A DNA stretch of 64,000 nt, from positions 37,013,753-37,077,752 of the forward strand of contig NC_090290.1 in assembly GCF_037392515.1 (NCBI RefSeq), in the 5' to 3' direction. Origin of the DNA: Haliotis asinina. Lineage: Eukaryota > Mollusca > Gastropoda > Lepetellida > Haliotidae. The translations under genes and the position numbers were made by a program. This document shows positions 6,241-63,512 of this stretch, piece by piece. Each line of letters opens with the position of its first letter. The first letter of the stretch is position 1. A model generated the notes under the pieces. It did no database searches. It was given only the letters and a program-made list of their open reading frames with translations, and had not been told where the DNA came from.

Positions 6241-7244
6241 TTAACAAACTCCATTGACACATCTCTGCCATGCATCACAATCGGGCAAACATTCCGCTTC
6301 AAATGAAAAGGACAAAGTTACTGTATTAAAACAACAGAGGCAGGTAAATTTGACCCAAGTTGTTTCAGCAGTATTGCTAAACAGTAGTTGTACATGTAGT
6401 AGTACATGTTGGAGTAGTTGCACCAGCGGGATTAGTACTAACCCATAGTACTAACCCAAAAATGAAAAATGACAAAACTGAAAACTTGCCACTGGTATAG
6501 TTATTTATTTTTGGTTCTGTTCATTAGAATATTTCAAACAGTATCTCTAGTAAAAATAAACATTGTGAATCCTTTAATGTCATGAACTTTTTAAAGTCAC
6601 GTGCATTTATAGATTTTGTATCGTAAGAAAATGAAAAACTGAATACACGTGCAAACACAAAATCATGAGGTCAAGTATGCGTGTTTGCCTAAACTGAATA
6701 AGCACAGTGAAGTTGAACTGGAAGAACAAATTGAATTTTTCATTTTGATGACCTTTAAGAAATGCCGCGTCTTACAAATGGAGAACGTCAACGTGCTATT
6801 GGGGGACTCCATGCTGGTCAGTCTGTGTCCTGGTTGCTGTTACAAGAGCCTTCAACTGTTCAAGACAAACAATGATTAAACTCAGTAGAGAAGGCATCAC
6901 ACTGGAAGGGATGCAGATCGCCCGAGGCCAGGAGCGTCACGTGTGACGTCACTCCGGGAAGATGCAGCAATACGATGACGTCATCAACAGATTTGTCACT
7001 GCAACTTCCACAAGTAGGGAGATGTTTGGTGGAAGGTTAGCCCTGCAAACTGTCAGAAATCGCATGCGTGCCGCCGGACTTCGCCCCCGGAGACCCCATA
7101 ACGGGCCAATACTGTGAGTATTAGTATCGGATGTAGTAAGTACGTAGTGATGACATCATCATACTTACTTCCAGCCAAAGACAACGTCACTGGCGTCATC
7201 AGCACCAGCAGCAGCAGCACCACTACGACATTCTCCATCGTCAT
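6241..7244 (-). CDS. small secreted half-EGF peptide, locus A
   Basis: Not a named gene. Two coding exons fit in frame: 7244-7169 (76 nt) and 6296-6241 (56 nt), giving 43 residues. Exon 1 encodes a signal peptide (MTMENVVVVLLLLVLMTPV, then TLSLAG) and ends at the strong donor A|GTAAGT, phase 1. Exon 2 follows an AG acceptor and encodes ECLPDCDAWQRCVNGVC, that is C-x3-C-x5-C-x4-C, then TAA. The stop lies 5 nt before another phase-1 donor (G|GTAGGA), the position where relatives C and E splice to a tail exon, so A may have lost its tail by a nonsense change. The role is unknown. The four cysteines match Cys1-4 of an EGF domain, which would allow two disulfides. Splicing is inferred from consensus sites only. 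Confidence 0.6.
6754..7105 (+). pseudogene. Tc1-like transposase N-terminal fragment
   Basis: Lies inside the intron of peptide gene A on the opposite strand. Translation starts MPRLTNGERQRAIGGLHAG, a typical Tc1-family helix-turn-helix start. After a frameshift and stops come a VTSLRED-like block and LALQTVRNRMRAAGLRPRR, the end of the second DNA-binding helix. The catalytic domain is absent, so this is a truncated relic. Confidence 0.75.
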
Positions 7245-7332
7245 TCGGTTGGTGAAATATATCTCTTGTTCTGAATGAACTACCAGTGTAGCTACAAGCA
7301 AGCAATTACACATATAATTGTATATATGAGTA

Positions 7333-7396
7333 GAGGTGCTGTATGACATGGTGCTGTATGACAAGGTGCTGTATGACAAGGTGCTGTATGACATGT
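7333..7396. repeat. 15-bp tandem repeat
   Basis: Four to five copies of GGTGCTGTATGACAT/AAG in the leader intron of peptide gene A. The unit is a multiple of three, so it leaves open frames (SYST repeats) that are not thought to be coding. Confidence 0.85.
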
Positions 7397-7479
7397 TCGG
7401 CAATGTATTTCATAATGTATAGTGGTGGCGTGAAGGGTCATACGTTTGGTGCTGTGCTGTGTAAATGAGTTGTGCATGA

Positions 7480-8640: not shown

Positions 8641-8642
8641 AC

Positions 8643-12475: not shown

Positions 12476-12476
12476 A

Positions 12477-14494: not shown

Positions 14495-15075
14495 GGCACC
14501 CGTGGCGAGCCACCTCCTCGTGGTGGGTGCTGGGTCACGCTAAGAGCTCGCCGACACCCCCGTAGTGGACCCGGGGGAATATTTGGTCCACCAACCCGTT
14601 TGCCGTGGGTTGCGGCCCTGTGTCGGTGGAGGAGGGGATCCTGGTGGTTGAGGGCAATGGGAGCAGGACCAATGTTCCTATTGCTCAACACACCACTTTG
14701 GCCCTTACTTCACCTAGACGGGTGGTAGAACTGGCCCAGTTCTATCAATCGGCTGGTCACGCCAAGCCCTGAGCTACAACTATTTCATGCTCAAAATTTA
14801 TGAAACTGGTAATTTGATTTTTCATGCTTGGCTCTTTGGAGATTGTAATTTGAAATTCATCATTTTATGTATGTTTTTGCCTAGAGTCGTATGCCCAGAA
14901 GGCGGTGGCTCATGGGCCAATCTGATGGAAATATTAATCTTTTGATTTTTCTACTGGAGTATATCATCCGGGTATCTTTGGTGCTGCAAGCTGGAGGCCC
15001 GCTTGCTTTAGCATTGTCCTTGTGATACTCCGTGGTGGGTGGGGAGCTCGGATGATGAACCATTTAAAACCAACT

Positions 15076-16190
15076 ATGGCTTACGAAACCCCCATTAAAA
15101 AAGCAAAACGTCCACTGGACCCTGATGAAGATGATAATGAACACAGACCGACCCAATCAATTTACTACTGGCCACGCTTTATAGTGATCGAGACTCATAA
15201 GACACCACTAAAGTTGAACCCGTTTGCAGTATCCAAGGCTATTCAAGGCATTGCGGGTGATGTCAAAAATGTTAGACGCTTGCGTTCAGGAGCTCTTCTC
15301 ATTGAATGTAGTAAACGACAGCAAGCTACAAACCTGATGACAACTGAAATGTTGGTAGGAATTCCTGTATCAGTCTCAGCTCACAGGACGCTCAACACTA
15401 GCAAAGGCATAATTCGAGATCGTGATCAGGTGTTTGCGGACATGACGAAATTAGATATTGGGACAGAGATGAAAGATCAAGGTGTCATGCATGTCAAAAG
15501 GTTTACAACCCGGAAAAATAAAGAAACTGTTCCAACAAACACATACTTGTTTTCTTTTTCCTCGCCAACTGCTCCAAAATCTGTGAAAGCTGGATACTGT
15601 AACATCGCTGTTGATACCTATGTTCCTAACCCATTAAGGTGTTTTAAGTGCCAAAAATTTGGACATGGAGTGAATAGTTGTACATTGTCTGTCACGTGTG
15701 CTCACTGTGGTGAGCAGACACATACAACAGAAGATTGTATCAACAACTTTAAGAAATGCGTTAACTGCGCCGGAAGTCACTCGTCTTTCACAAAAGACTG
15801 TCCAGTTTGGAAACGGAACATGGAAATCAACAAAATCAAATATACTCAAAACATTAGCTTTGCAGATGCAAAAAAACTTGTCCAAAGATCAGACGTAACA
15901 GAAACTTATGCTTCTGTTACCCGAACATCGCCTTCGCCAACCGTGAATGTAATCAAGTCTTCTGTTTGCTGTCAAACCAACTTAACATGGATTAATACTG
16001 ACACTCCTCAGACTTTGCTACCCGAATCATCCACTCAAACTGCTGACGTACTTCCGGAGCCCATGGGTGTTCAGGATGTACCTTGTACACAGGAGAAATT
16101 ATCTCAGACAAATGCAAAACGGACGTCTCAATCCAATGTGAAAGAAACTGAGAAAAACAAGCTTAAATCTAGATGTGAATCTTCACAAAA
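15076..16190 (+). pseudogene. LINE ORF1 (gag-like), copy 1, truncated
   Basis: Nucleic-acid-binding ORF1 protein of the LINE. The start is taken at ATG 15076 (MAYETPIKKAKRPLD), aligned with copy 2; an in-frame ATG also exists at 15022. An N-terminal domain of about 170 residues is followed by three zinc knuckles: CFKCQKFGHGVNSC, CAHCGEQTHTTEDC and CVNCAGSH...C. A Ser/Thr-rich C-terminal part follows. It is open to the breakpoint at 16190, where the 5' UTR of copy 2 begins. Translation would run into that UTR and stop at 16314, so its own C-terminus and ORF2 are missing. Confidence 0.85.
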
Positions 16191-16815
16191 GGGCACCCAT
16201 GAAGAGCCACCTCCTCGTGGTGGGTGCTGGGTAACGCTAAGTGCTCTTCTCCCGTGTGGACCCGGGACAGAATGTGTTCACAGCACCCCATTGCCTGTCG
16301 TAAGAGGCGACTAAATTGGGCAACCTGTTTGCCGTGGGTTGCGTCCCGTGTCAGTGGAGGACGGGATCCTGGTGGTTGAGGGCAGATGGGCTTTTAACTG
16401 CGTTTCATTTGCCCAACACACCACTTCGGCCCTTACTTCACCTAGACGGGTGGTTGAATGGACCCGATTCAACCAATCGGCTGGTCATGCCAAGCCCTGT
16501 GCATGAACTGTGTATGTGTCTTTGGCACAGATTTGATTTGAAATTGTTTTGAATTTCGGCTTTGGCACTACTGGTGATCTGTAAGTTTTGATTGTGAATT
16601 CTAATATGAACTTTGCCTAGAGTCTTATGCCAGAAGGCGATGGCTCATGGGCCAATCTGGTAGTTTAATTATTTATAATTCTTCTACTGGAGTATATCAT
16701 CCGGGTATCCTTGGTGCTGCAAGCTGGAGGCCCGCTTGCTTTAGCATTGTCCTTGTGATACTCCGTGGTGGGTGGGGAGCTCGGATGATGAACAATATGA
16801 CACCAACCATGGCTT
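16191..16815 (+). mobile_element. LINE 5' UTR, copy 2
   Basis: Starts GGGCACCCATGAAGAGCC and parallels copy 1's 5' UTR (from 14495): GAGCCACCTCCTCGTGGTG, TTTGCCGTGGGTTGCG, CACCTAGACGGGTGGT and ATCATCCGGGTATC are shared. Unlike copy 1 it holds the perfect hairpin GTCGTAAGAGGCGAC (about 16299-16313), also present in SINE family 2. It is expected to contain an internal promoter, as I-group LINEs do (inference). Confidence 0.8.
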
Positions 16816-18090
16816 ATGAAGTACCCCACAAAAAAAACAAAGCGTCCACTTGAAATTGATCCTGTTGATACTGACCACAGACCGTCTCTATCGATTGAGT
16901 ATTGGCCACGTTTCCTTGTTATTGAGACTCCGGACAAGACCCCATTAAAGCTGAACCCTTTTGCAGTATCTAAAGGCATTCAAAGTATTGCTGGGGATGT
17001 TAAGAACATTCGGCGCTTACGTTCGGGTGCGCTACTAGTTGAGTGCAGCAAGAAACAGCAAGCATCCAATCTGATGAGTATTGAATCTTTTGTGGGCATT
17101 CCGGTCACAGTCTCTGCTCACAAGACCTTGAACACTAGTAAAGGTATCATCAGAGATCGTGATCGATTGTTTGCTGACATGTCCGAACTTGATATAGCAT
17201 GTGAAATGAAAGATCAAGGTGTGCTATATGTGAAGCGCTTTTCAACCCGAAAAAACAATGAAACATTTCAAACTAATACCTATCTGTTTACTTTTTCATG
17301 TCCAAATGCTCCAAAATCAGTGAAGGCAGGCTATTGTAACATAGAAGTTGATACCTACATCCCCAACCCGCTCAGGTGTTTTAAATGCCAGAAATATGGA
17401 CATGGCGTGAATACTTGCACATTGTCTGTTGTGTGTGCTCACTGTGGTGAGCAGACACACACAACAGAAGATTGTGACAGTGATTTCAAAAAATGCACCA
17501 ACTGTTCAGGCAACCATTCATCTTCTTCGAAACAGTGTCCTATTTGGAAAGAGCAAATGGAGATAAACAGAATAAAGTTTACTCAAAATATCTCCTTTTC
17601 TGAGGCAAAAAAACTGGCTAAAAGGTCTGATCTTCCAGAAAGTTACGCTACAGTAGCAAAAACATCATCGGAGTCTACCTCAAAAATAACAAAATCATCC
17701 ACAGGATGCCAAACTACCTTGACTTGGATAAATTGCGATTCTCCACAGCTTTTATACCCTGCTATGTCATCTCAGACTGAGGAATCACTTCCTAGTACAT
17801 CAAAGTCGTCTTCTGATCACAAATCATCATCATCTCAGTCACACTCGAAATCTCAATCGACAGCTGATAATCAACAAACTGTGAAAGGTAAACCGAAGTC
17901 TAAGCCTGATGCTTCAAAACAACAAAGTGGCAGAGCTCCTAAAGGGTCACAAAATAAAATTCAGTTGTTTAATAGATATGGGTCTCTTGAAGACATGGAC
18001 GTTTCTGAAAACGCCCATTCTAGGGCACATAGCTTGTCGCCCTCCAAAAGAGTGCGGGGTAGATCCCCAATAAATCCCCCCAAAAGATAG
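16816..18090 (+). CDS. LINE ORF1 (gag-like), copy 2
   Basis: Open frame of 424 codons for the ORF1 nucleic-acid chaperone that packages LINE RNA. Three zinc knuckles lie around residues 190-250: CFKCQKYGHGVNTC, CAHCGEQTHTTEDC and CTNCSGNH...C. The last third is Ser/Lys-rich, ending SPINPPKR. The N-terminal domain (about residues 15-175) closely matches copy 1. The ATG equivalent to copy 1's start (MAYE...) lies a few bases upstream but out of frame, because an A-run near 16830 carries one extra base. The frame given starts at ATG 16816 instead. The stop TAG overlaps the start region of ORF2. Confidence 0.85.
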   Translation: MKYPTKKTKRPLEIDPVDTDHRPSLSIEYWPRFLVIETPDKTPLKLNPFAVSKGIQSIAGDVKNIRRLRSGALLVECSKKQQASNLMSIESFVGIPVTVSAHKTLNTSKGIIRDRDRLFADMSELDIACEMKDQGVLYVKRFSTRKNNETFQTNTYLFTFSCPNAPKSVKAGYCNIEVDTYIPNPLRCFKCQKYGHGVNTCTLSVVCAHCGEQTHTTEDCDSDFKKCTNCSGNHSSSSKQCPIWKEQMEINRIKFTQNISFSEAKKLAKRSDLPESYATVAKTSSESTSKITKSSTGCQTTLTWINCDSPQLLYPAMSSQTEESLPSTSKSSSDHKSSSSQSHSKSQSTADNQQTVKGKPKSKPDASKQQSGRAPKGSQNKIQLFNRYGSLEDMDVSENAHSRAHSLSPSKRVRGRSPINPPKR

Positions 18091-18096
18091 TTTATC

Positions 18097-21000
18097 CCAA
18101 TAATATTGTACAGTGGAACTGCAGAGGATTGAGGACAAATTTACATGAATTACAGCTATTAGTCCAGGATTTTACACCTTCAGCGATATGTCTCCAAGAG
18201 ACATACTTAAAACAAACAGATACATTTAACCTTCGTCATTTTAATGCATATCATTGTTTTTCACCTCCGGGTGATAGGGCCACTGGCGGATCATCCATTC
18301 TAGTCAAACAAAACGTTATTCAAAGCCCTGTTTCACTTAATACTAATATGCAGGCTGTTGCAGTGAGAATTACTTTACATGTAGCGTTTACGCTATGCTC
18401 TCTCTATATTTCACCATCTTCAGCTTTTGCCAAAACTGATCTGCAAGCTCTATATGATCAGCTCCCGAAGCCCTGTATTATAATGGGAGATTTAAATGGG
18501 CACAACCCACTCTGGGGTAGTGTAAATACAAACACTAAAGGTAAATTGTTGGAGGACTTTTGTTCTGACAATGATTTATGTATTTATAATGATGGTTCCA
18601 ACACATATTTACACCCTGGTACAGGGACTTATTCTGTTCTCGACTTGTCATTGACAAATTCCGAACTATTAAATGAATTCGAATGGTCAGTCCACGATGA
18701 CCTGTGTGGAAGTGACCATTTTCCTACTATATTAAAAGCTGTAACTCCATCCGATGTTCCTCCATCATCAAAAAAAATTTTAAAAAGGCTAACTGGGCTT
18801 TGTATGAAACACTGTGTGCTGAAAAACTTAAACCTGAACGTTTTATTGACGTTCCTGATGCTATTAAATGCTTTTCTGATGAACTGAATTCCATAGCTGA
18901 TGAGTGTATACCAAAGTCCTCTGTAGTTCCACACATAAGAAAACCATGGTTCAACGATGACTGCAAACAAGCTAGGAAGGCAAGGAAAAAAGCTGAACAT
19001 TATTTCCGTCGCCATCCTATGGTGCATAATTTAAATAAATTTAAAATTTTAAATGCTAAAGCACGGCGTACTTTTAAACAAAACAAACGCCAATCTTGGC
19101 AAAATTATGTGTCCAAAATAAATTCTCGGACACCCATGTCCAAGGTATGGAACATGGTCCAGAAAATAAAAGGTAAAGGTACTAAATCTACGGTCCATCA
19201 TCTTAAACATGGAGATCAATTACTTACTGATAAATCAGATATTGCTAATAAACTAGGTGAAACTCTTGCTAAACACTCTTCCTCTTCTAATTATGTACCA
19301 GAATTCCAGCAATATCAAAAACAAGAAGAAAAGAAAACTATTAATTTCAATTCTGATAATGGGGAAGATTATAATGAAACGTTTTCTATTCATGAACTCC
19401 ATACTGCTCTTGATCAAGCTCATGACACTGCTATAGGAGCTGATAACATACATTATCAACTCCTGAAGCACTTACCAGAATCCTGCCTAGAAACTCTTCT
19501 CAATATTTTTGATGATATTTGGACATCGGGTAACTTTCCTCCGTCATGGCGTGATGCCATAGTAGTACCAATACCTAAACCTGGACGTGATCATACGGAT
19601 CCGTCCAATTATCGACCTATTTCACTAACTAGCTGTGTTTGCAAGACCATGGAACGCATGATAAATAATCGACTTGTTTGGTACTTGGAAACAAATAATC
19701 TTATCACAGATATACAGTGTGGTTTCCGTAAAAACAGAAGTACTGTCGATCACTTAGTGCGTTTAGAATCATTTGTTAAAAACGCACTAATTAATAAACA
19801 ACATGCTGTGTCTATCTTTTTTGATCTTGAAAAAGCATATGACACAACCTGGAAACATGGTATTTTGAGGGATTTACATGACTTTGGTTTGCGAGGTCGT
19901 TTGCCTCAATTTATTGCCAACTTTTTAAATGACAGACAATTCCAGGTCCGTGTGGGTTCTACCCTGTCTGATCATTACAATCAGGATCAGGGTGTTCCAC
20001 AAGGTAGTATTTTGTCTGTCACTCTTTTTAGCATCAAGATCAACAGTTTATCAAAAGTTTTAAACGATTCAATTGATGGATCGCTTTTCGTGGATGATTT
20101 TAATATTTCTTGCCGAGGTAAAAATATGCATACTATTGAACGGCAACTGCAGTTGTGTTTAAACAAAATAAATAAATGGTGTCTTGAAAACGGCTTCAAA
20201 TTTTCGAAGTCCAAAACTAATTGTATACATTTTTGCAGAACATATAAGCCACATAAGGACCCTGAACTCTCTCTAGATGGCACTCCCATCAAAGTTGTAA
20301 AGGAGGCCAAGTTCTTGGGATTAATTTTTGACTCACATTTAACGTTTCTACCACATATCAAATCCCTCAAAACTAAATGCCTGAAGGCACTTGACTTGTT
20401 GAAAGTCGTTTCAAATTCTAAATGGGGAGGGGACCAAGCTACCCTCCTGCAACTTTATCGATCACTGATCCGGTCAAAACTTGATTATGGCTCCATTGTC
20501 TATGGTGGAGCCTGTAAAAGCAACCTGAAACTTTTAGATTCTGTTCACCATCAAGGTCTAAGAGTTTGTCTTGGCTCCTTTCGAACTTCACCTGTTGACA
20601 GCCTGTACGTTGAGGCTGATGAGCCATCTCTTGAGCAGCGACGTATCAAATTAGCTTTACAGTATGTAACAAAATTATATTCCAGTGAGTCAAACCCTGC
20701 ATATAACTGTGTCTTCAGTCCTCTGTGTGAGGACTTATACAATATGAAATCTTCGCTTGTACCGCCTCTTGGTTTAAGAATTAAACCATTTCTTGCTGCT
20801 GCCGGCATTGAGCTGGAAAATATAGCTCCTTCCCGTCTTCTCTCTTCTCCTCCTTGGCAGTTGGTTAGGCCCCAAGTGGACCTAACACTGACCACATTTA
20901 AAAAATCAGAAACTAATGACTTACAGTATAAACAAGAATATCATCAATTGAAACATAAATATAGCAGTTATAAATCCTTATTTACAGATGGGTCCAAGGA

Positions 21001-21775
21001 CGGTGGTGCAGTAGCTTGTGCCACTGTCATTGGATCCAGAACAATATCTTCTAGATTACCAGACAACAGTTCTATTTTTACCGCTGAAGCTAACGCCATA
21101 TTAACAGCTCTTAAATATATTCAAAGACACCCTAAACGTAAACAATATATAATCTATTCCGATTCTCTTTCTTGCCTTCAGGCTATTAAAAATAATTCTT
21201 GTAAACATCCACTTTTAATTGAAATTATTGAATTGTATAATACTCTTGCTACTGGCCAATACGACATCGTCTTCTGTTGGTTACCCAGCCACGTGGGCAT
21301 TTCTGGTAACGCAATGGCCGATCTTGCTGCCAAGGTGGCACTCAACAAATCTGTGACACCACTTCTTATTCCATACACTGATTATAAAGCTAACATTAGA
21401 TCTTATATCCGTGATCTGATGCAGAAGAAGTGGGACACCCAATTGGGTATAAATAAATTACTTGAGATAAAACCTTACATTGGTTATACCCACTTGGGTT
21501 GTCAGTCCAGATTTGAAGAGGTTATTTTAAGACGATGTCGTATTGGCCACACTAGATATACCCATTCATACCTGTTGAAAGGTGAGGATCCTCCGTTTTG
21601 CATCCCTTGTGATGAGAGAACCACGGTCAAGCATATCCTGCTTGACTGTGTTGAATTCTCCATCATAAGGGACAAATATTTCAATGTAAAAACAATTAAG
21701 GACCTTTTTAACACCGTAAGTTCTCATTTAATTCTTGGCTTTTTAAAAGAAATTGATTTCATCACTGAATTTTGA
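18097..21775 (+). pseudogene. LINE ORF2: endonuclease, reverse transcriptase, RNase H (one frameshift)
   Basis: Replication polyprotein of the LINE. Frame 1 (about 18097-18790) is an APE-type endonuclease: QWNCRGLR, LQET, MGDLNGHNPLWG and SDHFP. It has no ATG near its start and overlaps the end of ORF1, so reinitiation or non-AUG start is likely. A one-base slip in the A-runs near 18770-18790 moves the reading to a second frame that stays open to 21775 (991 codons from 18800). That frame has reverse transcriptase blocks FFDLEKAYDTTW, GVPQGSILS and FVDDF (usual YADD-type site). It then has RNase H with all four acidic residues (FTDGS, FTAEAN, YSDSLS, GNAMADLA) and a C-terminal Cys/His motif (CIPCDERTTVKHILLDC). 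The single frameshift makes this copy inactive, but it is young. Confidence 0.88.
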
Positions 21776-22852: not shown

Positions 22853-23273
22853 CAACATATGTCATATTTGGGATTTCACTTTCTCAGTAAAGTACAAATT
22901 CTAGTACTTTTTTTCGGTTGAGTCCCATCCGGGATTCGAACCCGCACCCTCAGAGTCAGGCACCTAATCGCCAGCACACAAAGTCAGCCGCCTAGCCCGC
23001 TCAGCTGAAAGTCGCGGTGGCTGAGTCAGGCACCTAATCGCCAGCACACAAAGTCAGCCGCCTAGCCCGCTCAGCTGAAAGTCGCGGTGGCTGAGCGGGC
23101 TAGGCGGCTGACTTTGTGTGCTGGCGATTAGGTGCCTGACACTGAGGGTGCGGGTTCGAATCCCGGATGGGACTCAACCGAAAAAAAGTACTAGAATTTG
23201 TACTTTACTGAGAAAGTGAAATCCCAAATATGACATATGTTGCATTTGACCACTTTCTAAATGGCATCGTGTA
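22853..23273. mobile_element. palindromic (foldback) tRNA-derived SINE
   Basis: The arms are near-perfect inverted repeats: left about 22851-23009, right about 23090-23244. Each arm contains a tRNA-like SINE with an A box (TGGCTGAGCGG) and B box (GGTTCGAATCC) and a tail with AGTACTAGAATTTGTACTTT. Between them, a roughly 73-bp segment of the left arm (GAGTCAGGCACC to GCGGTGGCTGAG) is tandemly duplicated. The whole unit is flanked by 17-bp direct repeats, so it seems to have inserted as one piece. The family differs from the other two SINE families here. Confidence 0.8.
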
Positions 23274-24610: not shown

Positions 24611-26446
24611 TCATGCCTCACCTCCTCCCCCTGTTCCTCCTGTTCCAAAACAATGTCCATTTATGCATGGCACTCCTTCGTCACAAGGGGGCGAACACGT
24701 CGCGGAACCAACTGAAAAATGACGAAAATGATACCTTTCGGAAGAAATTAAGAATTTAGATTTAATGGGCTGAACAAGCAATTACCTTCCGTTTATATTT
24801 CCACCATCAGCGAAAACGGTTGCGACCACTGGCAGGGGTATAGCTACCATTATGACAAAAGCCCGGTCTTACACACGGTTGATGTTGAAGAGGTTGGGCA
24901 AGCCCTCATTACTTTCTAGGAGTTGTGGGGTAGCCTGGTGGTTAAAGCGTTCGCTCGTCCCGCCGAAGACCCAGGTTCGGTTCCCCACATGGGCACAATG
25001 CGTGAAGCCCATTTTCTGGTGTCCCTCGTCGTGATATTGCTGTAATATTGCTAAAAGCGGCGTAAAACTCACTCACTTACTCATTACTTTCTAAATACAA
25101 AGTTTCAACCTATCGGGTGAGTGATTGAGTTTAGTTTTACGCAGCAATATTCCAGCTATATGGCGGCGGTCCGTCTGTAATCGAGTCTGAACCAGACAAC
25201 CCAACAGCATGAACATCTGTGCAATTGGGAACCGATGCCATGTGTCAACCAAGTCAGCGAGCCAGACCACCAGATCCCATTAGTCGCCTCTTACGAGAAG
25301 CATAGTCGCCTTCTATGGCAAGCATGGGTTGCTGAGGACCTGATCTACCCTGGATCTTTCAACATATCGGGCTTACACGAAACAACTGTCTTACTACACG
25401 CCTGACTGGAGTACCACACTCAGCAATATTCCAGCTTAGTGACTATGGTCTGTAAGAAATCGAGTCCGAGACCAGACAATCCAGTGATCAACAGCATGAG
25501 TCAACCAAGTCAGCGAGCCTGACGACTCGATCCCGTTAGTGTCCTCTTACAACAAGCATGGGCTCCTGAAAACCAATGTTAATCCGGATCTTCGCGGGTC
25601 CCACATCCTTCACCTGATTGGAACCACGTTAATAAACACAATGACGATGCATATTCAACGAAATAGATATAAGGAAAGGAATCTGCTCATATGCCATGCT
25701 TACTCCCAAGCCAAGGAAACGCAGACCATGCCACTGATGCCGTCAACAGCAGCACAACTGTCAACAGCACCGCCCTCATCGTCAGTCTGTGTCTGCAATG
25801 ATCAAACTATGAAAGAAATCAATTCGCCAAATCAGAGCTAAAATTGAAAACAAGTAAAAGTGATTATCATTAGGTAGATCTTTAAAATATGCTAAACAGC
25901 AAAAGAAACGCAATTTTCGAAAAGTGAAATTTCGTTTCGTAAGCGTTCCTGTTTATGTCTTCTATTTCGCTTCTTTGGCTGTTCAGTATATATATAATGT
26001 ATTTCGGTAATGATGGCATCATGGCTGTGTAACGTGACGTCCATGGTGATGAACTTGGTGATGTGATGCACGTGTGTTTGGATATGGGTTGGGTGATGTG
26101 TTGGGTGATGTATTGGGTGATGTGTTGGGTAATGTATTAAGTGGTATATTGGGTGATGTGTTGGGTGATGTATTAAGTGATATATTGGGTGATGTGTTGG
26201 GTGATGTATTGGGTGATGTATTGGGTGATGTGTTGGGTGATGTATTGGGTGATGTGTTGGGTCAATGCCAGTGTGATGGGGATAAAATCGATCATATTCC
26301 TGGACTGACCAAGCCTTAATTGACACAGCGATTAATGGATAATTGTTGAAACGAAACAAATAATACTCATCAGTTCTGTATTCGCATTAAAGTGATTACT
26401 TCCGTAATGATTCAGTTCTGAAAGCACGCTGTTTTGTGTACTTACG
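24611..26446 (-). CDS. small secreted half-EGF peptide, locus B
   Basis: Two coding exons, 25779-25704 (76 nt) and 24711-24611 (101 nt), fit in frame to give 58 residues. A non-coding leader exon ending at 26446 (C|GTAAGTAC donor) splices to the acceptor TTGCAG at 25793. The coding start is ATG 25779. Exon 1 encodes the signal peptide MRAVLLTVVLLLTASVAWSA and ends A|GTAAGC, phase 1. Exon 2 follows TTTTTCAG and encodes TCSPPCDEGVPCINGHC (C-x3-C-x5-C-x4-C), then a glycine-rich tail FGTGGTGGGGEA and TGA. The spacing and the C-(V/I)NG-C end match locus A, as does the upstream region. Function unknown; a half-EGF fold is inferred. Introns hold two SINE families, a MITE and a 12-bp minisatellite. 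Confidence 0.65.
24923..25085 (+). mobile_element. tRNA-derived SINE (family 1), full length
   Basis: GGTAGCCTGGTGGTTAAAGC (A-box region), GGTTCGGTTCCC (B box), GTGATATTGCTGTAATATTG, GCGGCGTAAAACTCACTCAC. Sits in intron 1 of peptide gene B. Confidence 0.85.
25116..25365 (-). mobile_element. SINE family 2
   Basis: Reverse copy: TTTAGTTTTACGCAGCAATA, CAACCAAGTCAGCGAGCCA, TTAGTCGCCTCTTACGA, GCAAGCATGGGTTGCTGA. In intron 1 of peptide gene B. Confidence 0.85.
25405..25605 (-). mobile_element. SINE family 2, degenerate
   Basis: CACTCAGCAATATTCCAGC, CAGACAATCCAGTGATCAAC, CCCGTTAGTGTCCTCTTAC. In intron 1 of peptide gene B. Confidence 0.8.
25887..25992. mobile_element. Tc1-like MITE (copy 1 of 3)
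   Basis: Inverted termini: left ATGCTAAACAGCAAAAGAAAC, right complement ATACTGAACAGCCAAAGAAG. Sister copies lie at 48548 and 60579. In the leader intron of peptide gene B. Confidence 0.7.
26085..26262. repeat. 12-bp minisatellite
   Basis: About fifteen units of TTGGGTGATGTG/A in the leader intron of peptide gene B. The unit length leaves open frames on both strands (HHPT/HHPI repeats on minus), which are not considered genes. Confidence 0.9.
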
Positions 26447-32875: not shown

Positions 32876-32965
32876 CCCACAGCAGAGACGAGGTGAATCG
32901 TTCTTGGAGTGTTTTAACTGAAGCATCTTACGACCAGTTATCACACGTATTGATTCATCACCTTC

Positions 32966-44887: not shown

Positions 44888-45038
44888 ATTGATGAACTCT
44901 TAGTCTTGTATTTGTCTGTTAGGTTGGTATTTCCGCGTACACAGCCCACGTGAGTCATCACAACATACTGTCTTCCGGGAGAGCGCTGAGACGCGACATG
45001 CTGGGACAGCGAGGTTGATTTTATCGCTTAGTGTGAGC

Positions 45039-45952: not shown

Positions 45953-47685
45953 TCATCCTGGGGGTGGTGGCGGTGGCGGCGGTGGTGGCGGCGGCCCTCC
46001 ATTGTTGCCAAAACCAAGGATGCTGTTCAACGAACTTACACCTGAAAAACATATTCGTGAAATCTCTGTGATTACTAGTATTCCTGCCACTTTCATACTG
46101 TAGCTGCAGTGTGCTGGTTGTCATCTTTTGACTAGAAACAGATTATTTTCTCTTTCACACATATTCATGTTACATTCACTTCTACAGAAATACTTAAATA
46201 AGAAAGGTATCAATTTGTATGTTCTCTTTGTAGATTTTGTAAAGGCTTTCGGGTATGTTCACAGGAAAAGTTATGGATCTTATAAATAATCATTCCTTAA
46301 GCAATAAAATGAGTAAACTTTTAAGAAGTTTAAATGATAAAGTAAAGATGTGTGTGAGAAAGAATATCTGAAACTTTTGAGCGCCACATAGGAGTAAGAC
46401 AAGGTTGTATCTTGAGCCCATTTTTATTTTCTTTCTTTATCACTGAACTTGCAATGCAGATTCATGAAAACTGTTCAAGCGGTACTCAGTTACATCCAGA
46501 TTATAGTACAGCCATTTCTTCTAATACTTGCTGATGATGTCATACTTTTCTCTTTCCTCGGATTACAAACAGAAATACACGAATTACAAAAATACTGCAA
46601 TGAATGGAAACTAAAGAAAACGAAATAATAGTGTTCAAGAATGAAGGTAAACTTGCTGCATAAGCGAAATGGACTTTTTTTGTTTGTTTATAAACATATT
46701 TTTATTCATAAAAATATAAACAACATGAATGCGGATTGGCACAACAAGCCAAAGGCTTATGTATCTCCATTTATTATAACATAATACAATCAAACATTTA
46801 TACAGTACAGAGGCAATGAACAATGAATTATTTCAGAAAAACAAAAACAAAAATATGAAGGTGAAATGATAGACTCAAAGTGCTACGTCTTATACATGCC
46901 TAAGACTTTATTTTACAAACCACCTATCGTGGTCCTTACATGTGAGAAATGCATCGATAACTGATATTAGATATATTTATATTTTAGGTGACTTGCCAAC
47001 TATATATGGTTCTGAGGTATGGGGACTCCAAACACTTGATCCGCACGATAAAATACATTTTAGGCAAATAAAGGATTTCACGAAAGTTACTACTTCAGAT
47101 ATGATGCTTTATGGTGAATGTGTTAGATTTCCGTTATTTGTTAAATCAAATATAAAAGTACTAAAATATTGTTAAAAATCTTACATATGCCATCTTACAG
47201 ATTACCCCCAATAGTGTTACAATATGATGACCTTTTTTATAGAAGTGGAAAGCTTTACTGGGTTACTGACGTTAAAGATTTCCTATTTTCTACATTTTTC
47301 GGTAATATATGGATAGAACAGTGCATAGACCCACATCAAGATATCTCATATCCATCAAACAAAAGTTACAAGTTATATATCTAGAGACTTGGTCTGACCA
47401 ATTACCTGTGTCAAATAAATGTCTTTTTTTTTTTTGTTTCGTTTTTTTTCAGTCAAGATATAACCTTGTGTTGCAGTTACATAGATTGATAAAGTCACTG
47501 AAAACCGTATTCGCATGGATAGGCAACTTCGCTTTTCAGTGTTGACCCCAGCATCATTATCTACTAAATGATATATATATATATATATATACATACATAC
47601 ATACATACATACATACATACATACATACATACATACATACATACATACATACATACATACATACATACATACATACATACATACA

Positions 47686-47716: not shown

Positions 47717-49262
47717 TGTTTTCCTTTCCCACACTATAGTCATTTCATGGCTTAAGGGGCCCGAATGTATGGTTGCCACTACGATCCATACACGCACTAT
47801 CATCGCCTCTATCAGCAGATAGGTATGAGAATATGAGGAATGACTCACCACAGAACTCAATCGTGAATATGCGGACACATTTCCCACCGTCTTTACACTC
47901 CTTTTTACACTTCTCTGAAACATACAATTTTTCAATTTTTATACAGCAGACACGAAAGATATACAATGATGGCAGCCAGACACTGTCACAAACACACGCG
48001 CGGACACACAAACGTATGCAAGTGATATTTGCATACACACGCACTCACGCAAGCCAGACACACAGAGCATCAGAGAACTTGATTTAGATTCACGTCTATA
48101 ACTATCTATACTTATTTTCTGTTTCGAGATGATAACCTCTGTAACGTCGAGACCAGTGAAGGTTCGGGGTAGAACAGGTCTTCAGCAACCCATGCTTGCC
48201 ACAAGAGGCCATTGTGCATGTCGTAAGAGGCGACTAACGGGCTCAGAAGACCAGGCTAGCTGACACATGTCATCCGTTTCCAACTGCGCAGGTCGATTCT
48301 CATGCTGCTGATCACTATATTGTCTGGTCCAGACTCGATTATATACAGGACGCCACCATACAGCTGCAATATTGCTGAGAGCGGCGTACAACTATACTCA
48401 CTCACTCACTGTAACGTCGACTTTGACCATGCCATACTAAAACGCCTTGGTCCTACGTGAAGACGGTGCCTCGTGCTGACAGTGAGTGGGTAGCGTCAGG
48501 GTTTGTCTGTCGAGTGACATTAAAACTTCGGCTGTATTTCATTCACATACTGAACAGTAAAAGAAACCCAAATCAGGTTTTCGTCATGCTTTTAAAATAG
48601 ATGATACAAACATGGACGCTTACGTTTATGAGATTTTATTTTTTTGAAAATTGCGTTTCTTTTGCTGTTTAGTATGTACAGCTAATGATAATATAAATAC
48701 ATTTCGAAAGCACGTGTCGTTGCACCTTTGTTATCAATTTCAATAAAAAAGATGTTAAAAGAGTAACAACATATTTCGTGAAAACGTCTTGACCTTTCAC
48801 AATAAAGATACTGTCATCCACAAAACTCTTGTCTACGTGTGTATTAATTCTAAATGCCCTTCAAAGATGTTCCTTAATAACCCGGAAATCATTGGAATAG
48901 TGCTTGTTGTCATTCTTAGATCACCGAATCGGTTTTCTCAAAAAACGGTTCCATTATGACCACATCAGGATCGACCCTCCCGTACTCACTTGTGTCGCAT
49001 GTTGCCAGTGTGACACACAGTAGGAGAATCAACAACGTCTGGAACATGACCCACTGAAATCACAACGTCAGAGTCTAAACGGTATGAAATGTTTCATAGT
49101 AACGCGAGATGTTTGATTTATGTACCCAAACTGAGAACACGATCCCTTTGTATGCACATGTTCCTGTGTTAGCATGATGTCCACAAGTGCGCCTGTAAAC
49201 AACATCTTCTCGAGACCAGGGAGTTAACTGATAAATTCCACCTTCCAGACCGGGCACTTACC
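45953..49262 (-). CDS. small secreted half-EGF peptide, locus C (proline tail)
   Basis: Three coding exons join in frame to give 70 residues: 49047-48990 (58 nt), 47914-47849 (66 nt) and 46041-45953 (89 nt). Exon 1 follows the acceptor ATTTCAG and encodes the signal peptide MFQTLLILLLCVTLATCDT, ending A|GTGAGT. Exon 2 encodes KCKKECKDGGKC then VRIFTIEFC, i.e. C-x3-C-x5-C-x8-C, the spacing of cysteines 1-4 of an EGF domain including the GG before Cys3; it ends G|GTGAGT. Exon 3 encodes GVSSLNSILGFGNNGG, twelve prolines, Gly, then TGA. All introns are phase 1. AATAAA lies just beyond (45910-45905). A short leader exon ends at the strong donor GGGAG|GTAAGTG (49262). Not a named family. Secretion is well supported; function is unknown. 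A dead LINE fragment and microsatellites sit in intron 2. Confidence 0.7.
46195..47400 (+). pseudogene. degenerate LINE reverse transcriptase in intron 2 of peptide gene C
   Basis: Reads in broken frames: LYVLFVDFVKAFGYVHR near 46210, GVRQGCILSPFLFSFF near 46390, LADDVILFSFLG near 46530, then after an unrelated roughly 250-bp insertion IYGSEVWGLQTLD near 47005 and MLYGECVRFPL near 47110. These are RT core and C-terminal landmarks of a non-LTR element. It is dead. Confidence 0.75.
47566..47715. repeat. TA then CATA microsatellite
   Basis: About 20 bp of TATATA followed by about 125 bp of CATA tetranucleotides. Confidence 0.97.
48152..48412 (+). mobile_element. SINE family 2
   Basis: GTGAAGGTTCGGGGTAGAAC, TGTCGTAAGAGGCGACTAAC, TTGTCTGGTCCAGACTCGAT, ending with ACTC repeats. 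In intron 1 of peptide gene C. Confidence 0.85.
48548..48676. mobile_element. Tc1-like MITE (copy 2 of 3)
   Basis: Left CATACTGAACAGTAAAAGAA, right complement CATACTAAACAGCAAAAGAA. About 128 bp. In intron 1 of peptide gene C. Confidence 0.78.
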
Positions 49263-54063: not shown

Positions 54064-56974
54064 TTACGGTTCTTCGTCGTCTTCGTCTTCATCTTCTTCG
54101 GAACCACCGATACCTCCAGCCCCAGGCAGACTCGCCACTGTGAAGGAGTGAGGGAAAATACGAGTGAGCGAGTGAGTGAGTGAGTGAGTGATACTAACGA
54201 GTACGCTGCTGAAAAAAAAGAGGAATTATATTTTTTTAGAGCAGGGATTCGAAAGGAATCTGGATTCAGGATACAAAGGTACTACCATTGAATGTGACTA
54301 CACAGCAGATTGCTGCAGTTAGACGACTCACCCATCCAAGCCACAAACTAAAATGCTCAGCAGATACGATCTTCTAAATGTATACTCATGGAAATTAACA
54401 GGGGAACCAATAAAAGTACAAGTGGTCCTTTATTCATTTTCAGAATTTCACTCACAATACACTACGGTGTAGAAACCTGGAAAAGAATAAATTAACACAT
54501 ATACTCTCATATGTTCCCTTATTCGTTTCCATGAGTATTAAGAACGTTCAAACAAGAAAACAAAATTTACATCTGATAGTACCGTTACAATAATGTCACC
54601 CAGCCATCATCTCTTGAACGGTACTAAAACGGAACCTAATTTATTTAGTGAAGGTCGCCAGTGAGTGAGTGAGTTTAGTTTCACGCCACACTCCAGCAAT
54701 ATTCCAGCAATATTCCAGCAATATGGCGGAGTGAAGGCCCCGAATAGGGTATGGTGCCGACAAACCACAAACAGGTTAAAGCTGGGGTTCGACAACACGG
54801 TGACAAGATTCTACACGCATACAGAACAAAATTTTAGCAAAATTTTAAACTATTTGTTTCGCCGTTTTAGTAATATTCAAGCAATGGGCACTACACACTG
54901 TACTCATTAAATCATTATCGTGGCATAAACATACCAAAAGTGCAGCTGTTCAGACTAGAAAGGTTCTGTTTAGGCATATTAATGACATTACACAGATTTA
55001 AACCAATTCTGTTTGAATTATTTTCTTGGATATTTGACACCAAAACTATGCCTATTTCACTCTATGGCTCTGGCTCTACACAGTGCTGGGTGAATGTGGC
55101 AGGTACCCTCGGATATTCTTGCATTTAAACGTGCAATAAAATTAGGATGAGGTTATTGAATATGCTTATGTAGACATCCTACATATAGCATCCTTTTACG
55201 AGCAGCTACTAAAGGGAAAAGTAACTGGGTCTCCAAACTGACCTACTTATTGTTTCGACTTGGATATGTCTGTGTATGGGAGTCACAAACAATAATTAGT
55301 AAAGAATCCTTTATTGCTTAACTTATGACAAGATTACAGTGTTCGTTTGAACAAGTCGTGGATAGCGTTAATATATTCACAGGGGATAAGCCGGAATGCT
55401 CAGCCGGAAGTTGGTCGTCATCAAATACGGAAGAGAATTAGTCCCATACTTCATACGATTTTGATATTTCCAAATAGTCAATGTATATGTCAGATTGTAT
55501 GGTATCACAGAAGCTAAAATCTTGACATAGATGGTACGTTACCTCATTTAGCCTAAAGATACACAATACATGAATTTAAGAGATTATGTTTTATAGAGGT
55601 CGAATGTGGTCGATTTCTCTGCTTTTCCGATTCGCCCCGAAAAACGTGTCAAGACCTACTTCAAATGTAAACAAAATATAATATGTCACGACCAAATGAT
55701 ATACATGTATGTAGGTTATAATCCATGACCATTCAGCTTCGAAGACAAGTCCATTTCATAAACATCTTCTCTAAATACCAACATCTTACAAAGTTTGGGG
55801 CTCAAGCTTTACCGGGATCGACTGTCTGTCGAGGAATTGTATTTGACGACGATCACCTTACGACTGAACATGGACATGGCTTACACCTCTGTGTAATTAC
55901 GGCGAAATCCACTGTGGAAGTCTGTACTCTATGTCTTATGTCTTATGTCTGTACCATTTCACTTGTTTCCCTAATGGCCGTTCTGCACAATCACACAAGC
56001 AAGTTCAAAGTGTAGGTACCCAAGAACAGAGCAACGCTTACCACAGATATCGAATGGACCCAAGTCAAGACATGTGCTGCCAGGGGAACATTCTGTTCTA
56101 CAAGGTCGATCTACAAAACAAACATGGGAAGACGAGGCTCATTCACAAATCCAAGTTAGCCACTGCATTTTGTATATACAGTTCATACGTGCGTGAATGC
56201 ACGTTAATTATTGTCACGATTTCCCAATTAAACCACGGGAACAGCACATATATGCTTCATACCGTGTATCACCTGACAGAATAGAATCTGAACATTAGGC
56301 GTCACGATCGAACGCATAGGCCATATGACTACAATCTTTCCCCCGTTATATTGTAGACTTAAAACACAGTGATAAGTACAATTAAGCAGAGGCTGAAGTA
56401 AGGTACATTTAAGTATAATTTTGGTTATCTGTAACTTTGACAAAAAACATGGCAAAATACAAGACAACCTTGGTAGCCATATACAGGACAATCCCAAATT
56501 TGAAGCAACATTTACATACATATGTGACATGCAAGTCCTATTTGACGTGCCTTGGCATGTGTTTGTGATAGGTGCCAGCGTTTAGGAGAAACAGAGTTTC
56601 GCGAATCTCTGGTGCCATCACTGTTTGATATTGATTCCTAAATGCATGTTCAACAAATAGTCGGACGTGTGCAATGGACTCTGCTCTGGGCCGAGACGCC
56701 TAAGTTGTTACGTAAAAAGCTTTCTCGCTGAAATGGATGCTGTCACAAAGCTAAAATACTCACAAAAGTTCGCACATTCACATCGAGAAGAATTAATATA
56801 AAATCTAATAGAATTATATTTACATACTACAAAATGGAGTTAACCAGAATACCTCACTGTGAGAGCATAGTTGTTTATCTATCGTAAAAAACGTTTACAA
56901 TTCTGATCCCTACCCAGAGAATGCACTGCACTCAGAAGGAGGAACACCAACACCAATTGCCGAACCGCCGTCAT
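54064..56974 (-). CDS. small secreted peptide, locus D (acidic tail; cysteine exon not found)
   Basis: Two exon candidates match the family pattern. Exon 1, 56974-56914 (61 nt), follows the acceptor ATTTCAG directly at the ATG and encodes the signal peptide MTAVRQLVLVFLLLSAVHSL, ending G|GTAGGG, phase 1. The tail exon, 54137-54064 (74 nt), follows TTCACAG in phase 1 and encodes VASLPGAGGIGG then SEEDEDEDDEEP and TAA, with AATAAA just after. A phase 1-1 cysteine exon is expected between them but was not recognised. Direct joining keeps the frame, giving about 44 residues without cysteines. Either the exon is lost, too diverged to see, or the two exons are not one gene. Function unknown. Confidence 0.45.
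54660..54735 (-). mobile_element. SINE 3' tail fragment
   Basis: GAGTGAGTGAGTTTAGTTTC, ACGCCACACTCCAGCAATA. An AATATTCCAGC repeat is expanded to three copies. Confidence 0.75.
54740..56195. other. presumed intron of locus D with unassigned open frames
   Basis: Plus-strand open frames at 55725-56015 and 55931-56284 overlap in different frames and show cysteine/histidine-rich stretches, but no domain was recognised. Possibly remains of a transposon gene. Confidence 0.3.
56200..56335 (-). mobile_element. degenerate tRNA-derived SINE (family 1)
   Basis: ATTAGGCGTCACGATCGAAC and GCATAGGCCATATGACTAC match the complement of the family-1 head with decay. Confidence 0.5.
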
Positions 56975-59439: not shown

Positions 59440-62400
59440 TCATTTCCTCCCCGGAGGATGACCTCCTTGGTTTCCAAACCCGTTTGCCTCTTCATCACTG
59501 CCATCTCCTTCGGGTTCTGTAAAGATAATCCCAAGATTATTCAATATAACACCCCACCGCCTATACACTGTATCCTTGTCTACTGACACTGCTGAGTAAC
59601 AGTTAAAGTTGAACAACATTGGGTGCGTGGAATCCTTGAATGGGTGACCGTGTTCGGCACATGTGGTCTCATCTTAGTTAAATGATTTTGTTCAAACATG
59701 GCACAGTTCACCCAGCAGAAAATTTGTACCCAGCGGAATAAGTCAAATGACTAACCTTCTAGCGCCTGACTGGCAGCTTGGGTTATCAGGGATATTATCC
59801 AAGCTGCTCATGATATTGATCACTGGATTGTCTATCCAGACCCGATTATTTACAGACTGCCGCCATACAGTTGGAATGTTTGGCGTAAAACTAAACTCAC
59901 TCACTCAATCAATAACGTAAATGCAACTTAATGCCCACGAGGGCTAAAATATGAGGGTTCATATTTTTAATACGATGCCCTAGGGTCAAGGTGACTTGAC
60001 GTCATGAACAATGCTATGACGTCACGTTTCTTCTGCGATGTTGAGTTCCACATGCGGCGACAGCGGGTAGCCAGCCTATGTTTGAAAGTAGATTTGACTT
60101 TATTTTCCTCAATTTGACGACTTCAGTAATAAGGAGAATATTATACTCGATCCCACTTATGCTATGTTTACGACACTCGTGCCTAAATATTGGTATATCC
60201 CTCTCTCTCACTCAGGTAATACCAACATGTAAGCACTCGTGTTGTAAATATAGCATGATATGAGCGCGAACATAACATCCTCATGATCACTGATTTCTCG
60301 TTCGGTCCTTCTAAAGGATAAAGAGCTAACTCCATTTTCTCGCATTATATGAAGACACACGGTTCCACCCTCCTGTCATATCTTCAAACGTAATCTCTGT
60401 TCTAATACGGCCCTTTCATGGTGCGAGTGATCTGGACTGGAGGTTGTTTTGGCCGTATTAGAACAGAGTTTAAGTAGGCAGATATGTCAGGAGTTACCTC
60501 TGTGGCAAGAATGAACTTTATACTGCCATTGTGACTTGAGTGTCATTGAATTTGCCCTGGTCTTAATTTCTAGTGGATCAGCAATTATACTGAATAGCAA
60601 AAGAAACACAACTCTGTATTTTGGTTGAGATTTTAAATAAACGACATGAACATAAACACTTTTTTATGAGATTTCATTTTTTCAAAACTTTGCTTTTCAG
60701 TATACTTTGCAAAAATCTTCATTAGTTGACGAGTTACATGATGCAGTTGTTAATTTATAACAATGGATTTATTTGATCACTGATATCTCAAGGTCACTTG
60801 TTTCAATAAGGAAATCATCACGTTCAGTCTTTAATTTCAAATACATACTGCACACAAAACCACCTCCCATGCTCTTGCATATTTGTCCGTCAGAACACTC
60901 CGGGACACAATCCCCTGAAAAACATAAACACATCAAGTATGCTCTTGTCGTTCAACGTATCTATCTTATGTAATACTTCAGTGTTTATTTTGAACTGTTT
61001 ATTTCATAGGTATCGTGTCACAATAAGGAGTACCAGAGTTAAGCAAGTAGGAAATGCTATATTTCCAGATGACATATAAACTAGCCCACGACAAGAAAAC
61101 AAAATTAGAGTTATGTCCCTTCCATCGATTTGCATTAGCAAAGCATCGGTAATTTCCGTACATCATACATGTCTCAGTTATTCGAGATAAAGAATTGCTA
61201 ACAACGAAGTACCAAAGCCCGGCAGACCCAGCGTTTAACATAGGAAATATTTCTTGCTTGTAAGCTGGTACATTGCATTTAATAAGAGAGCGCTCATCCA
61301 ACCAGAGAACTACTTCCATGTGTGAGATATGGTAAAGAGAAATGTTTGTACATGCCAGTATCATAGTTCACGGCTTCTGGCGCCAGCGGACATACATTAC
61401 AAAACATCCAAACCTTGTTTCGAAAATGAAGGAAAACATCTCACTATTTCATGCAATGAGTTTCATGGGTACAGTTTTGAGGTCCGATGTTTATCCTGAA
61501 ACTATTTACAACAATTAGTTAGATTTAAAAAGTTATTATTGGTTTGTATCACACGGGGGAAAGCGCAGTAGTTGGAATAGTGAAACAAATGCACTTGTGA
61601 TATGTGATGAACCTGACCTTAGACCAACTTTACTTGTTATAGGTGTTTCATTTAATGTGCATACTCCCTTGCTGTACGGACAAAAAAAAGCGATTTGAAA
61701 CTATGATCGTTAGTTAAACATCTTTCATCCCAAGGTGAAAAATCATGAGGAATTCCAATCTTAATTTCACTTTATTCGATTTACTTTTTTGTTTAAAGTG
61801 AAATTCATCGGTACGTTTTCTTTGCAAACGGACTATAATGGCGTTTTTAGACCCCATGGTGCAACGTTTGAAGTCTGTTAGTGTTCACCAACATCTGTTG
61901 ATGATTGCTAACTGCGGTGTAAAACTTCATTCATTCACATCTTATGCAGAGGAACTGATTGGACCTCCTCTCGGTGCAGATATACAGCACATGAAGATCG
62001 GTTGAAATGTTTGATCATCAAATGTACACTAAGATATAAGTCAGGGGGACAGAAATATGAAATATTGGGCCCGATACACGTGAACATGACCGTATTGATT
62101 TATTTCTCGATAAAGTTGTGCCATTACTCATTGAAAAGTGTTGTTTTTCATTTATGGCCATGTTCTTAGTTTAGGAAAAATAACAAGTTGATTAATCAGT
62201 AAAACGAGATCAACCAGCACAACATATGGTGCTATTTAGTATATTTATGTTTCACACCATTGTCATCTCCATGTGACCCGTTAAGATCCTGGGATAGAAT
62301 AGGTCTCCAGCAACAAATCCTTGCCATAAAAAGCGACTATGCTTGTCGTAAGAGGCGACTAACGGGATCGGGTGGTCAAGCTCGCTGACTTGGTTGACAC

Positions 62401-63512
62401 ATGTCATCGGTTCCCAATTGCGCAGATTGATGCTCATGTTATTGATCCCTGGATTGTCTGATCCAGACCCGATTATTTACAGACCACCGCCATATGGCTG
62501 GAATATTGCTGAGTGCGGCGTAATCTAAACTCACTCACTCACTCACCTCATCTCCAAGTTAGTAAACGTGATAAATCGATGTGACTTGTAGTGGGTTGAG
62601 TTAAGTTAAGTTGGGCTTTAAGTCACATCGGCATTATTTCAGCCAGGGAGTAACGAGATCAAGTTTGCACTTATTACCGTTTACGTGTTAATCATATGTA
62701 GCAACACCTCGAATCCTTGGTCCTAGCATGTCGGGCTACCCGTAGCTCCACAAAAGCGGATTTCGACATGCTCACCTAACAAGAGAGTCAGTTGGTCCTT
62801 CTTATCAGGACACGGTTACAAACAGGATGTGAAATAGATATAATATATTTCAAAATAATATTCGCAAATTGACACACGCGGTAAGTACTGGAATAATACG
62901 CGTACGGTGTCAAATCATACTCGTTCACCACTTGGGACACGGTGTCAAATCATGCTCGTTCACCACTTGGGACACCGGACAACTGACGATGGGGACAGTA
63001 CATAAGGAAAATAGACCAGCAAAACATCATCAGAATGCAGGCCCTTTACCTGCAGATCACGTTTTAAACATGTTTGGAAGACGTGTACATATGCCCCGAA
63101 GTCAAAGGAGGAGTGGACAAGACCAGGAATTGTCATTGATTCAATCCATGTCACGCCGAAAAGATAAAAATTATATACCTTGGATGCATAATTATATATT
63201 TATTTCTCAAAATATCTTGAACGTTCAATGCCAAGACACTCTTCTTCTTCCTTGGTTGTTGAACCATAAAAAACACCAACACCAACATATTCTGTTGATT
63301 GTCATGTTACAATCAGCTCTCCTTGTCTGGTCTACGCATTACCATTGCTCGATACGTCAGTTCTCTTACCATCTCTTATGTTCACATTTACCAGACTATT
63401 CTTGAGAGTACGGTAACCAAGCAAAAGAGATAACGTGAGATAACGTACCTTCTACGTGAAGCGTGAGCAGCGCTACAAGCATCAGTAGAGAGATCAAAAT
63501 CCCAGTCCGCAT
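59440..63512 (-). CDS. small secreted half-EGF peptide, locus E (Gly/acidic tail)
   Basis: Three coding exons join in frame to give 68 residues: 63512-63449 (64 nt), 60914-60849 (66 nt) and 59516-59440 (77 nt). Exon 1 follows CCTACAG plus a 6-nt leader and encodes the signal peptide MRTGILISLLMLVALLTLHV, ending G|GTACGT. Exon 2 (acceptor TTTTTCAG) encodes DCVPECSDGQICKSMGGGFV then C, i.e. C-x3-C-x5-C-x8-C, ending A|GTATGT. Exon 3 (acceptor TTTACAG) encodes KPEGDGSDEEANGFGNQGG, HPPGRK, TGA. The cysteine exon has the same length and phases as in locus C, and both tails carry GFGN(N/Q)GG. This is the best-preserved member. The mature peptide would be about 47 residues with two disulfides. Function unknown; expression not testable here. 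Confidence 0.72.
59795..59912 (+). mobile_element. SINE family 2 3' fragment
   Basis: TTGATCACTGGATTGTCTAT, GATTATTTACAGACTGCCGC, GGCGTAAAACTAAACTCACTC. In intron 2 of peptide gene E. Confidence 0.82.
60361..60530. mobile_element. MITE with long inverted termini (copy 2 of 2)
   Basis: TCATATCTTCAAACGTAATC, TCTGTTCTAATACGGCCCTT at the left is mirrored by GGCCGTATTAGAACAGAGTT at the right. The internal TTTCATGGTGCGAGTG is shared with 27601-28072. In intron 2 of peptide gene E. Confidence 0.75.
60579..60713. mobile_element. Tc1-like MITE (copy 3 of 3)
   Basis: Left ATACTGAATAGCAAAAGAAA, right TTTGCTTTTCAGTATAC. In intron 2 of peptide gene E. Confidence 0.75.
60999..61364 (-). other. unassigned 121-codon open frame in intron 1 of peptide gene E
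   Basis: Starts MILACTNISLYHISHMEVVL and contains several Cys and Trp residues. No domain recognised. It partly coincides with a dispersed repeat shared with 30.7 kb, so it may be repeat-derived. Confidence 0.25.
61341..61460. repeat. dispersed repeat shared with 30693-30815
   Basis: TGTTTGTACATGCCAG, AACCTTGTTTCGAAAATGAA, CACTATTTCATGC blocks in the same order. Confidence 0.5.
61461..62270. other. intron 1 of peptide gene E, mostly unique
   Basis: A degenerate SINE tail (GATTGCTAACTGCGGTGTAA, CATTCATTCAC) lies at about 61900-61937. Otherwise nothing recognised. Confidence 0.4.
62273..62548 (+). mobile_element. SINE family 2, full length
   Basis: TGACCCGTTAAGATCCTGGG, TGTCGTAAGAGGCGACTAAC, GATCGGGTGGTCAAGCTCGC, GGAATATTGCTGAGTGCGGC, then ACTC repeats. 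In intron 1 of peptide gene E. Confidence 0.87.
62588..62662 (-). mobile_element. LINE/SINE 3' tail fragment
   Basis: The minus strand reads GGCTGAAATAATGCCGATGT, GACTTAAAGCCCAACTTAAC, matching the LINE 3' terminus rather than the SINE tails. Confidence 0.65.
62904..62978. repeat. tandem duplication of about 36 bp
   Basis: CGGTGTCAAATCATACTCGT followed by TCACCACTTGGGACA occurs twice in a row with one difference. Confidence 0.9.

Follow-up and report, generated by a model that had tools for sequence, protein, structure and literature searches.

A tandem cluster of predicted genes for small, secreted four-cysteine peptides in the abalone Haliotis asinina

A window of 64,000 bases (C11:37013753-37077752 of the 1.14-Gb genome of 159 contigs) was analysed, in which five loci, here called A to E, were all read in sequence and their gene models rebuilt. 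All five were found on the minus strand, at the coordinates proposed in the initial annotation, and all are built from a signal-peptide exon, a cysteine exon with the pattern C-x3-C-x5-C-x4/8-C and a glycine-rich tail. The tail forms an exon of its own in C, D and E, as had been suggested, each modelled with a stop; in B it is fused to the cysteine exon, and in A a stop removes it. At the exon borders, phase-1 donors close the signal exons, as first described, and phase-1 acceptors open the cysteine exons. Positions within the window are given below in window numbering.

Locus A consists of a signal-peptide exon at 7169..7244 (phase-1 donor gtaagt) and a cysteine exon at 6241..6296 (ECLPDCDAWQRCVNGVC, then TAA). 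In B, the signal-peptide exon (25704..25779) is followed by a cysteine exon that reads through into the glycine-rich tail (24611..24711; CFGTGGTGGGGEA, stop), and an internal donor-like GTGAGG leaves a spliced alternative possible for this exon. Locus C has its signal-peptide exon at 48990..49047, a phase-1/1 cysteine exon at 47849..47914 and a tail exon at 45953..46041, which carries GFGNNGG and a proline run, with AATAAA 42 nt past the stop; part of an interspersed repeat with 55 match rows across the genome occupies 46600-47600 (minus strand) in an intron of this locus. In D, the signal-peptide exon (56914..56974) ends in gtaggg, weaker than the other signal-exon donors, and the tail exon (54064..54137) carries GAGGIGG and an acidic run, with AATAAA 28 nt past the stop. 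The exons of E lie at 63449..63512 (signal peptide), 60849..60914 (cysteine) and 59440..59516 (tail).

The reading frames close across the predicted joins in A, B, C and E, with the 44, 59, 71 and 69 codons (including stop) originally reported, where the 44 codons of A are counted from the first ATG and the rebuilt model, starting at the second, has 42. The initial annotation was right in assigning a cysteine exon to these four loci and wrong in describing D as being without one: the exon had been missed and lies at 56042..56110 (CRTECSPGSTCLDLGPFDIC, donor gtaagc). With it included D encodes 67 residues, so that all five loci fit one plan. An AG was found no more than 20 nt before the ATG in six of eight signal exons, A and the outlying up1 (described below) being the two with none. 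The AG of E is unusual, its score being reached at 1.1% of all ATGs (6 to 18% for the other five), and it is kept in a dispersed copy of E; an intron in the 5' UTR of the family genes is only suggested by these sites.

Several other features were recorded in the window. On the plus strand, an open frame at 36795-37502 encodes a Fibrinogen_C domain (77.6 bits), and a cysteine-bearing frame at 32954-33334 (plus strand; no Pfam match) may belong to this gene as an exon further upstream. Between loci B and C, a single open frame on the minus strand (43589-44899) contains ankyrin repeats and a SOCS box. A probable non-LTR retrotransposon occupies 14938-21775 on the plus strand, with reverse transcriptase and RNase H in the frame 18716-21775, and two tRNA-Thr(tgt) calls of 89 and 95 bases on opposite strands (22922-23175) are perhaps tRNA-derived repeats.

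To judge the motif against chance, the window and 100 kb on each side of it (264,000 bases) were compared with 20 order-2 and 20 order-5 Markov sequences. The exact motif occurs nine times, eight of them with a phase-1 acceptor by our own rule, against a randomised expectation of 0.70 (order-2) or 0.75 (order-5), and of 0.1 with the acceptor; since 15,000 of the 264,000 bases are N, the observed counts are lower bounds. The original argument that such agreement would be hard to obtain by chance is supported. All nine cysteine exons map to the minus strand, eight are preceded by their own signal-exon candidate, and seven (C, D, E and the outlying G19, G20, up1 and up2) have both a phase-1 acceptor and a phase-1 donor, giving symmetric 1/1 borders; A and B end in a stop. 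A looser cysteine motif matched seven times in the window alone, five of the matches being A to E. A scan blind to spacing, for any phase-1 exon with four or six cysteines, returned 11 rows, namely seven for six of the nine family exons and four for three other places, with A, C and E falling below its thresholds. The signal-exon scan gave 17 places on the minus strand versus four on the plus strand, and 11 of the 17 belong to the family.

In leave-one-out profile searches, six of the nine cysteine exons ranked directly behind the eight training exons (E 0.0005 to 0.96), B ranked 11 and D 25. G19 ranked 1520, and its membership therefore rests on its architecture. Five of the best non-family profile matches, on the minus strand, were read by eye and none resembled a family exon; searches of Rfam and of a phage collection led nowhere. 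The exon architecture, the unity of the family and the hydrophobic leader can be read directly in the DNA, the leader as a hydrophobic N-terminus in the signal exons according to a hydropathy rule of our own, not a dedicated predictor. We consider it highly probable that the gene structure and the family are real, and the earlier description of one family of tiny peptides, spliced on a common plan and secreted, agrees with these results, secretion being predicted from hydropathy.

The family extends beyond the window on both sides. Four more cysteine exons, all on the minus strand, were found outside it (G19 and G20 beyond its high end, up1 and up2 beyond its low end); the signal-exon scan added three genes, U1 to U3. 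No convincing signal exon of its own was seen for up2, which is probably the second head of a gene, called up, that it shares with up1. This makes six further genes just outside the window and a cluster of about 11 same-strand genes over ~115 kb (C11 36.979 to 37.094 Mb), or about 12 genes with the dispersed copy of E; scans of the readable remainder of the 264 kb gave no further family genes. Members with a short loop (x4: up1, up2, A and B, with U1 to U3 as derived forms) lie on the low side and those with a long loop (x8: C, D, E, G19 and G20) on the high side. No tail exon could be fixed for up, U1 to U3 or G19, that of G19 having been sought in readable sequence only.

On the low side, at ~36.994-37.011 Mb, tandem units of ~7.4 kb carry family signal exons. 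Over 7.3 kb, U1 and U2 agree at 99.7%, which marks their duplication as very recent. The cysteine exon of U1 to U3 is homologous to that of A, with TGT changed to GGT at the third cysteine and to TCT at the fourth. The signal-exon DNA of up1 is 77% alike to that of A over 82 bases and 77% alike to that of B over 70 bases. At the position of the TAA of A, its paralogue up1 reads CAA, and downstream of it A still contains a donor-like GAAG|GTAGGA; for these reasons A is read as a truncated relative of up1, and the notion that it represents a separate short design was rejected. Given the truncation of A and the absence of two cysteines from U1 to U3, part of the cluster may be decaying.

The genome was searched with six of the nine cysteine exons (up1, C, E, D, G19 and B) as queries. 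Outside the cluster, among the best candidates scored, they gave only a second copy of E, here E2, whose cysteine exon was found with that of E at C11:49079836-49079901, 12 Mb away. It contains all three exons of E, aligned in three blocks, with identical splice sites and stop, and is the sole family member in its 30 kb. Divergence in noncoding sequence amounts to 591 of 4551 aligned bases (13.0%), plus 426 gap columns; the signal exon differs at 7/64 bases, the cysteine exon at 14/66 (21.2%) with its four cysteines intact, and the tail at 11/74 with one in-frame 3-base gap. At its end the tail is invariant over 14 residues, all base changes there being synonymous. By the Nei-Gojobori method, dN/dS is 2.47 for the signal exon (based on a single synonymous change), 1.31 for the cysteine exon, 0.37 for the tail and 0.94 for the whole coding sequence, so that no constraint on the protein is apparent outside the tail. 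The cysteine exon diverges no less than the noncoding sequence, its excess over it being not significant (Fisher p 0.063), and the head therefore changes quickly. Taken together, the comparison indicates that frames are kept, that the end of the tail is constrained and that the head changes fast around four retained cysteines; as a copy of a full gene, E2 is the best evidence for the family.

The tails share a motif of their own. G-[NG]-x-G-G was found in seven rows among 768 terminal-exon candidates on the minus strand, corresponding to five places, all of the family (the tails of C, D, E and G20, and the fused exon of B), and in none of 713 candidates on the plus strand. Since the motif was derived from a comparison of the C, E and G20 tails themselves and later relaxed to admit D and B, it is its specificity, not its discovery, that counts as evidence. 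A longer form, GFGN-x-GG-x-PP, is common to C and E and occurs nowhere else in the 126 kb listed. In C, D and E (3/3) the stop is followed by a polyadenylation signal no more than 80 nt away, compared with 11.8% of minus-strand stop triplets, the limit of 80 nt having been set after the distances were known; A and B have none within this distance. The tail of G20, which also has such a signal and adds two cysteines in the model, outside the head, was picked among candidates by acceptor, polyadenylation signal and glycine content before the motif was noticed, and its signal is therefore no independent case. Over six modelled mature peptides, with guessed cleavage sites, net charge ranges from -12 to +3 (the latter in C and G20, the other four, A, B, D and E, being negative), and five of the six contain 7 to 12 glycines.

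The name 'half-EGF', under which the peptides were first described, was weighed against profile searches. The first half of an EGF domain, in which C1 pairs with C3 and C2 with C4, combines a characteristic spacing of C1 to C4, a C-x2-G-x2-C turn and symmetric phase-1 exon borders. In a first profile search of the PDB, six of seven rows were EGF-containing proteins, four of them from one antigen family, and the seventh, a conotoxin (E 2.8), was set aside; in a second search the proportion was three of four. The proteins in these rows include P25, factor XII and PVFP-5, which we take to contain EGF domains. Their E values run from 0.32 to 3.6 and none is significant; in three shuffled controls of the second profile, one of seven rows was an EGF protein, which scored equally well (E 0.39). 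Pfam returned nothing above its cut-off in the eight models scanned, U1 to U3 and E2 being outside the scan, and no family for the five of nine bare cysteine exons that were long enough; weak rows for the joined up model included Prokineticin (E 0.15) and Dickkopf_N (E 0.56). The term consequently describes the spacing well, and the phase-1/1 exon and the turn fit it too, but ancestry from an EGF domain is not proven by these searches, and the likeness is suggestive only. In a further reading, half an EGF domain would have become a free-standing module in a new secreted abalone class, in which a two-disulfide EGF-like hairpin is combined with fast-changing glycine-rich tails, some of them bearing proline or acidic runs suited to mineral or matrix binding, and which is re-made by tandem duplication; we regard this as speculative and rather improbable.

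The explanation we prefer, to which we assign a probability of about 55%, is that tandem duplication has built up a family of small peptides that are secreted, for which a role in a matrix is favoured at low confidence. Each full gene would join a signal exon, a phase-1/1 exon for a four-cysteine hairpin and a gene-specific glycine-rich tail. The head is predicted to fold as two stacked disulfide loops; so stapled, it would bind a partner, and the low-complexity tail would provide assembly or mineral contact. A matrix role is favoured because the glycine-rich tails, the proline and acidic runs and charges of -12 to +3 suit assembly better than attack on membranes, an argument from composition only. 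This role, as components of shell organic matrix, mucus or cuticle, is put forward tentatively and is much less sure than the family itself, the tissue and role, like the splicing and disulfide bonds, being predicted from sequence. Fast change of the head together with the loss of cysteines in some copies suggests birth-and-death evolution.

A rival explanation would be host-defence peptides, tandem and fast-changing disulfide peptides released from haemocytes or epithelia against microbes. A tandem array with recent duplication (U1 and U2) and the retention of cysteines while other positions change would agree with such a function. Membrane-active peptides are mostly cationic, however, and the modelled peptides A, B, D and E carry a negative net charge, with just +3 in C and G20, so that we find defence a rather doubtful explanation. 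The divergence of the cysteine exon between E and E2 could also recall secretions with a reproductive function, in the egg coat, sperm or a gland, whose fast divergence is driven by conflict, abalone lysin being an example. Its excess over noncoding divergence is not significant, however, and none of the eight models matched egg lysin in Pfam; a reproductive role appears distinctly unlikely. Separately, egg-lysin family matches were observed on contig C14, seven of eight above the Pfam cut-off, which mark the genome as being of abalone type.

A role as ligands or antagonists of the EGF receptor, built from half an EGF domain, could draw on the fit of spacing and turn to C1 to C4 and on the weak EGF rows in the PDB profiles, but is very improbable given heads that diverge fast, lack a C5-C6 loop in all nine exons and match no profile significantly. 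It is scarcely credible that the exons belong, intact or as decayed relics, to a single long multi-EGF gene: phase-1/1 cysteine exons on one strand could splice together, as those of up1 and up2 probably do, but eight of nine have their own upstream signal-exon candidate, C, D and E each have their own tail, stop and polyadenylation signal, and E2 stands alone.

A tandem family of secreted peptides with a matrix role, the reading favoured here, may be undescribed so far. No paper on such a peptide family was among the best matches listed by a literature search that covers few subscription papers. Against the matrix role, the main text of two abalone shell proteome papers (PMC6003135, PMC2989941) contains no 'EGF', and no such peptide is named in passages from them. 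Gene finders easily overlook exons this small (~20 to 30 codons) when they are scattered over kilobases, and that ~12 genes could be recovered with just exon phase and cysteine spacing as guides hints at the share of the gastropod secretome that may lack annotation. The predicted mature peptides form a concrete target list for proteomics of shell, mucus and immunity, and the half-EGF head, should it fold by itself, would offer a minimal disulfide scaffold of natural origin.

Compared with known systems, the head resembles the first half of an EGF domain in its C-x3-C-x5-C-x8-C spacing, in the C-x2-G-x2-C turn of most members and in its phase-1 borders, and differs in that each head has four cysteines, with C5, C6 and their loop absent from the head exon in all nine. 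The N-terminal hairpin of follistatin and FIMAC domains (Pfam CFAI_FIMAC_N) is matched weakly by A at residues 30-41 (21.4 bits), but this lies below the 27-bit cut-off, occurs in one of eight models and comes with no Kazal-type part. Among abalone nacre proteins, AP7 is described, in the text available, as carrying a calcium-binding part next to four cysteines that are conserved (PMC6003135). From what is given there, AP7 and perlinhibin are, like the peptides modelled here, small, secreted and cysteine-containing. The cysteines of AP7 are placed in a C-terminal RING-like domain that follows an N-terminal mineral domain, whereas the head of the present family is N-terminal; this comparison concerns position. 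Low-complexity shell-matrix proteins of molluscs are rich in Gly, Pro and Asp. The tails of the family are likewise glycine-rich, those of C and D also having Pro or Asp/Glu runs, but they are at most 29 residues long and are attached to a disulfide head.
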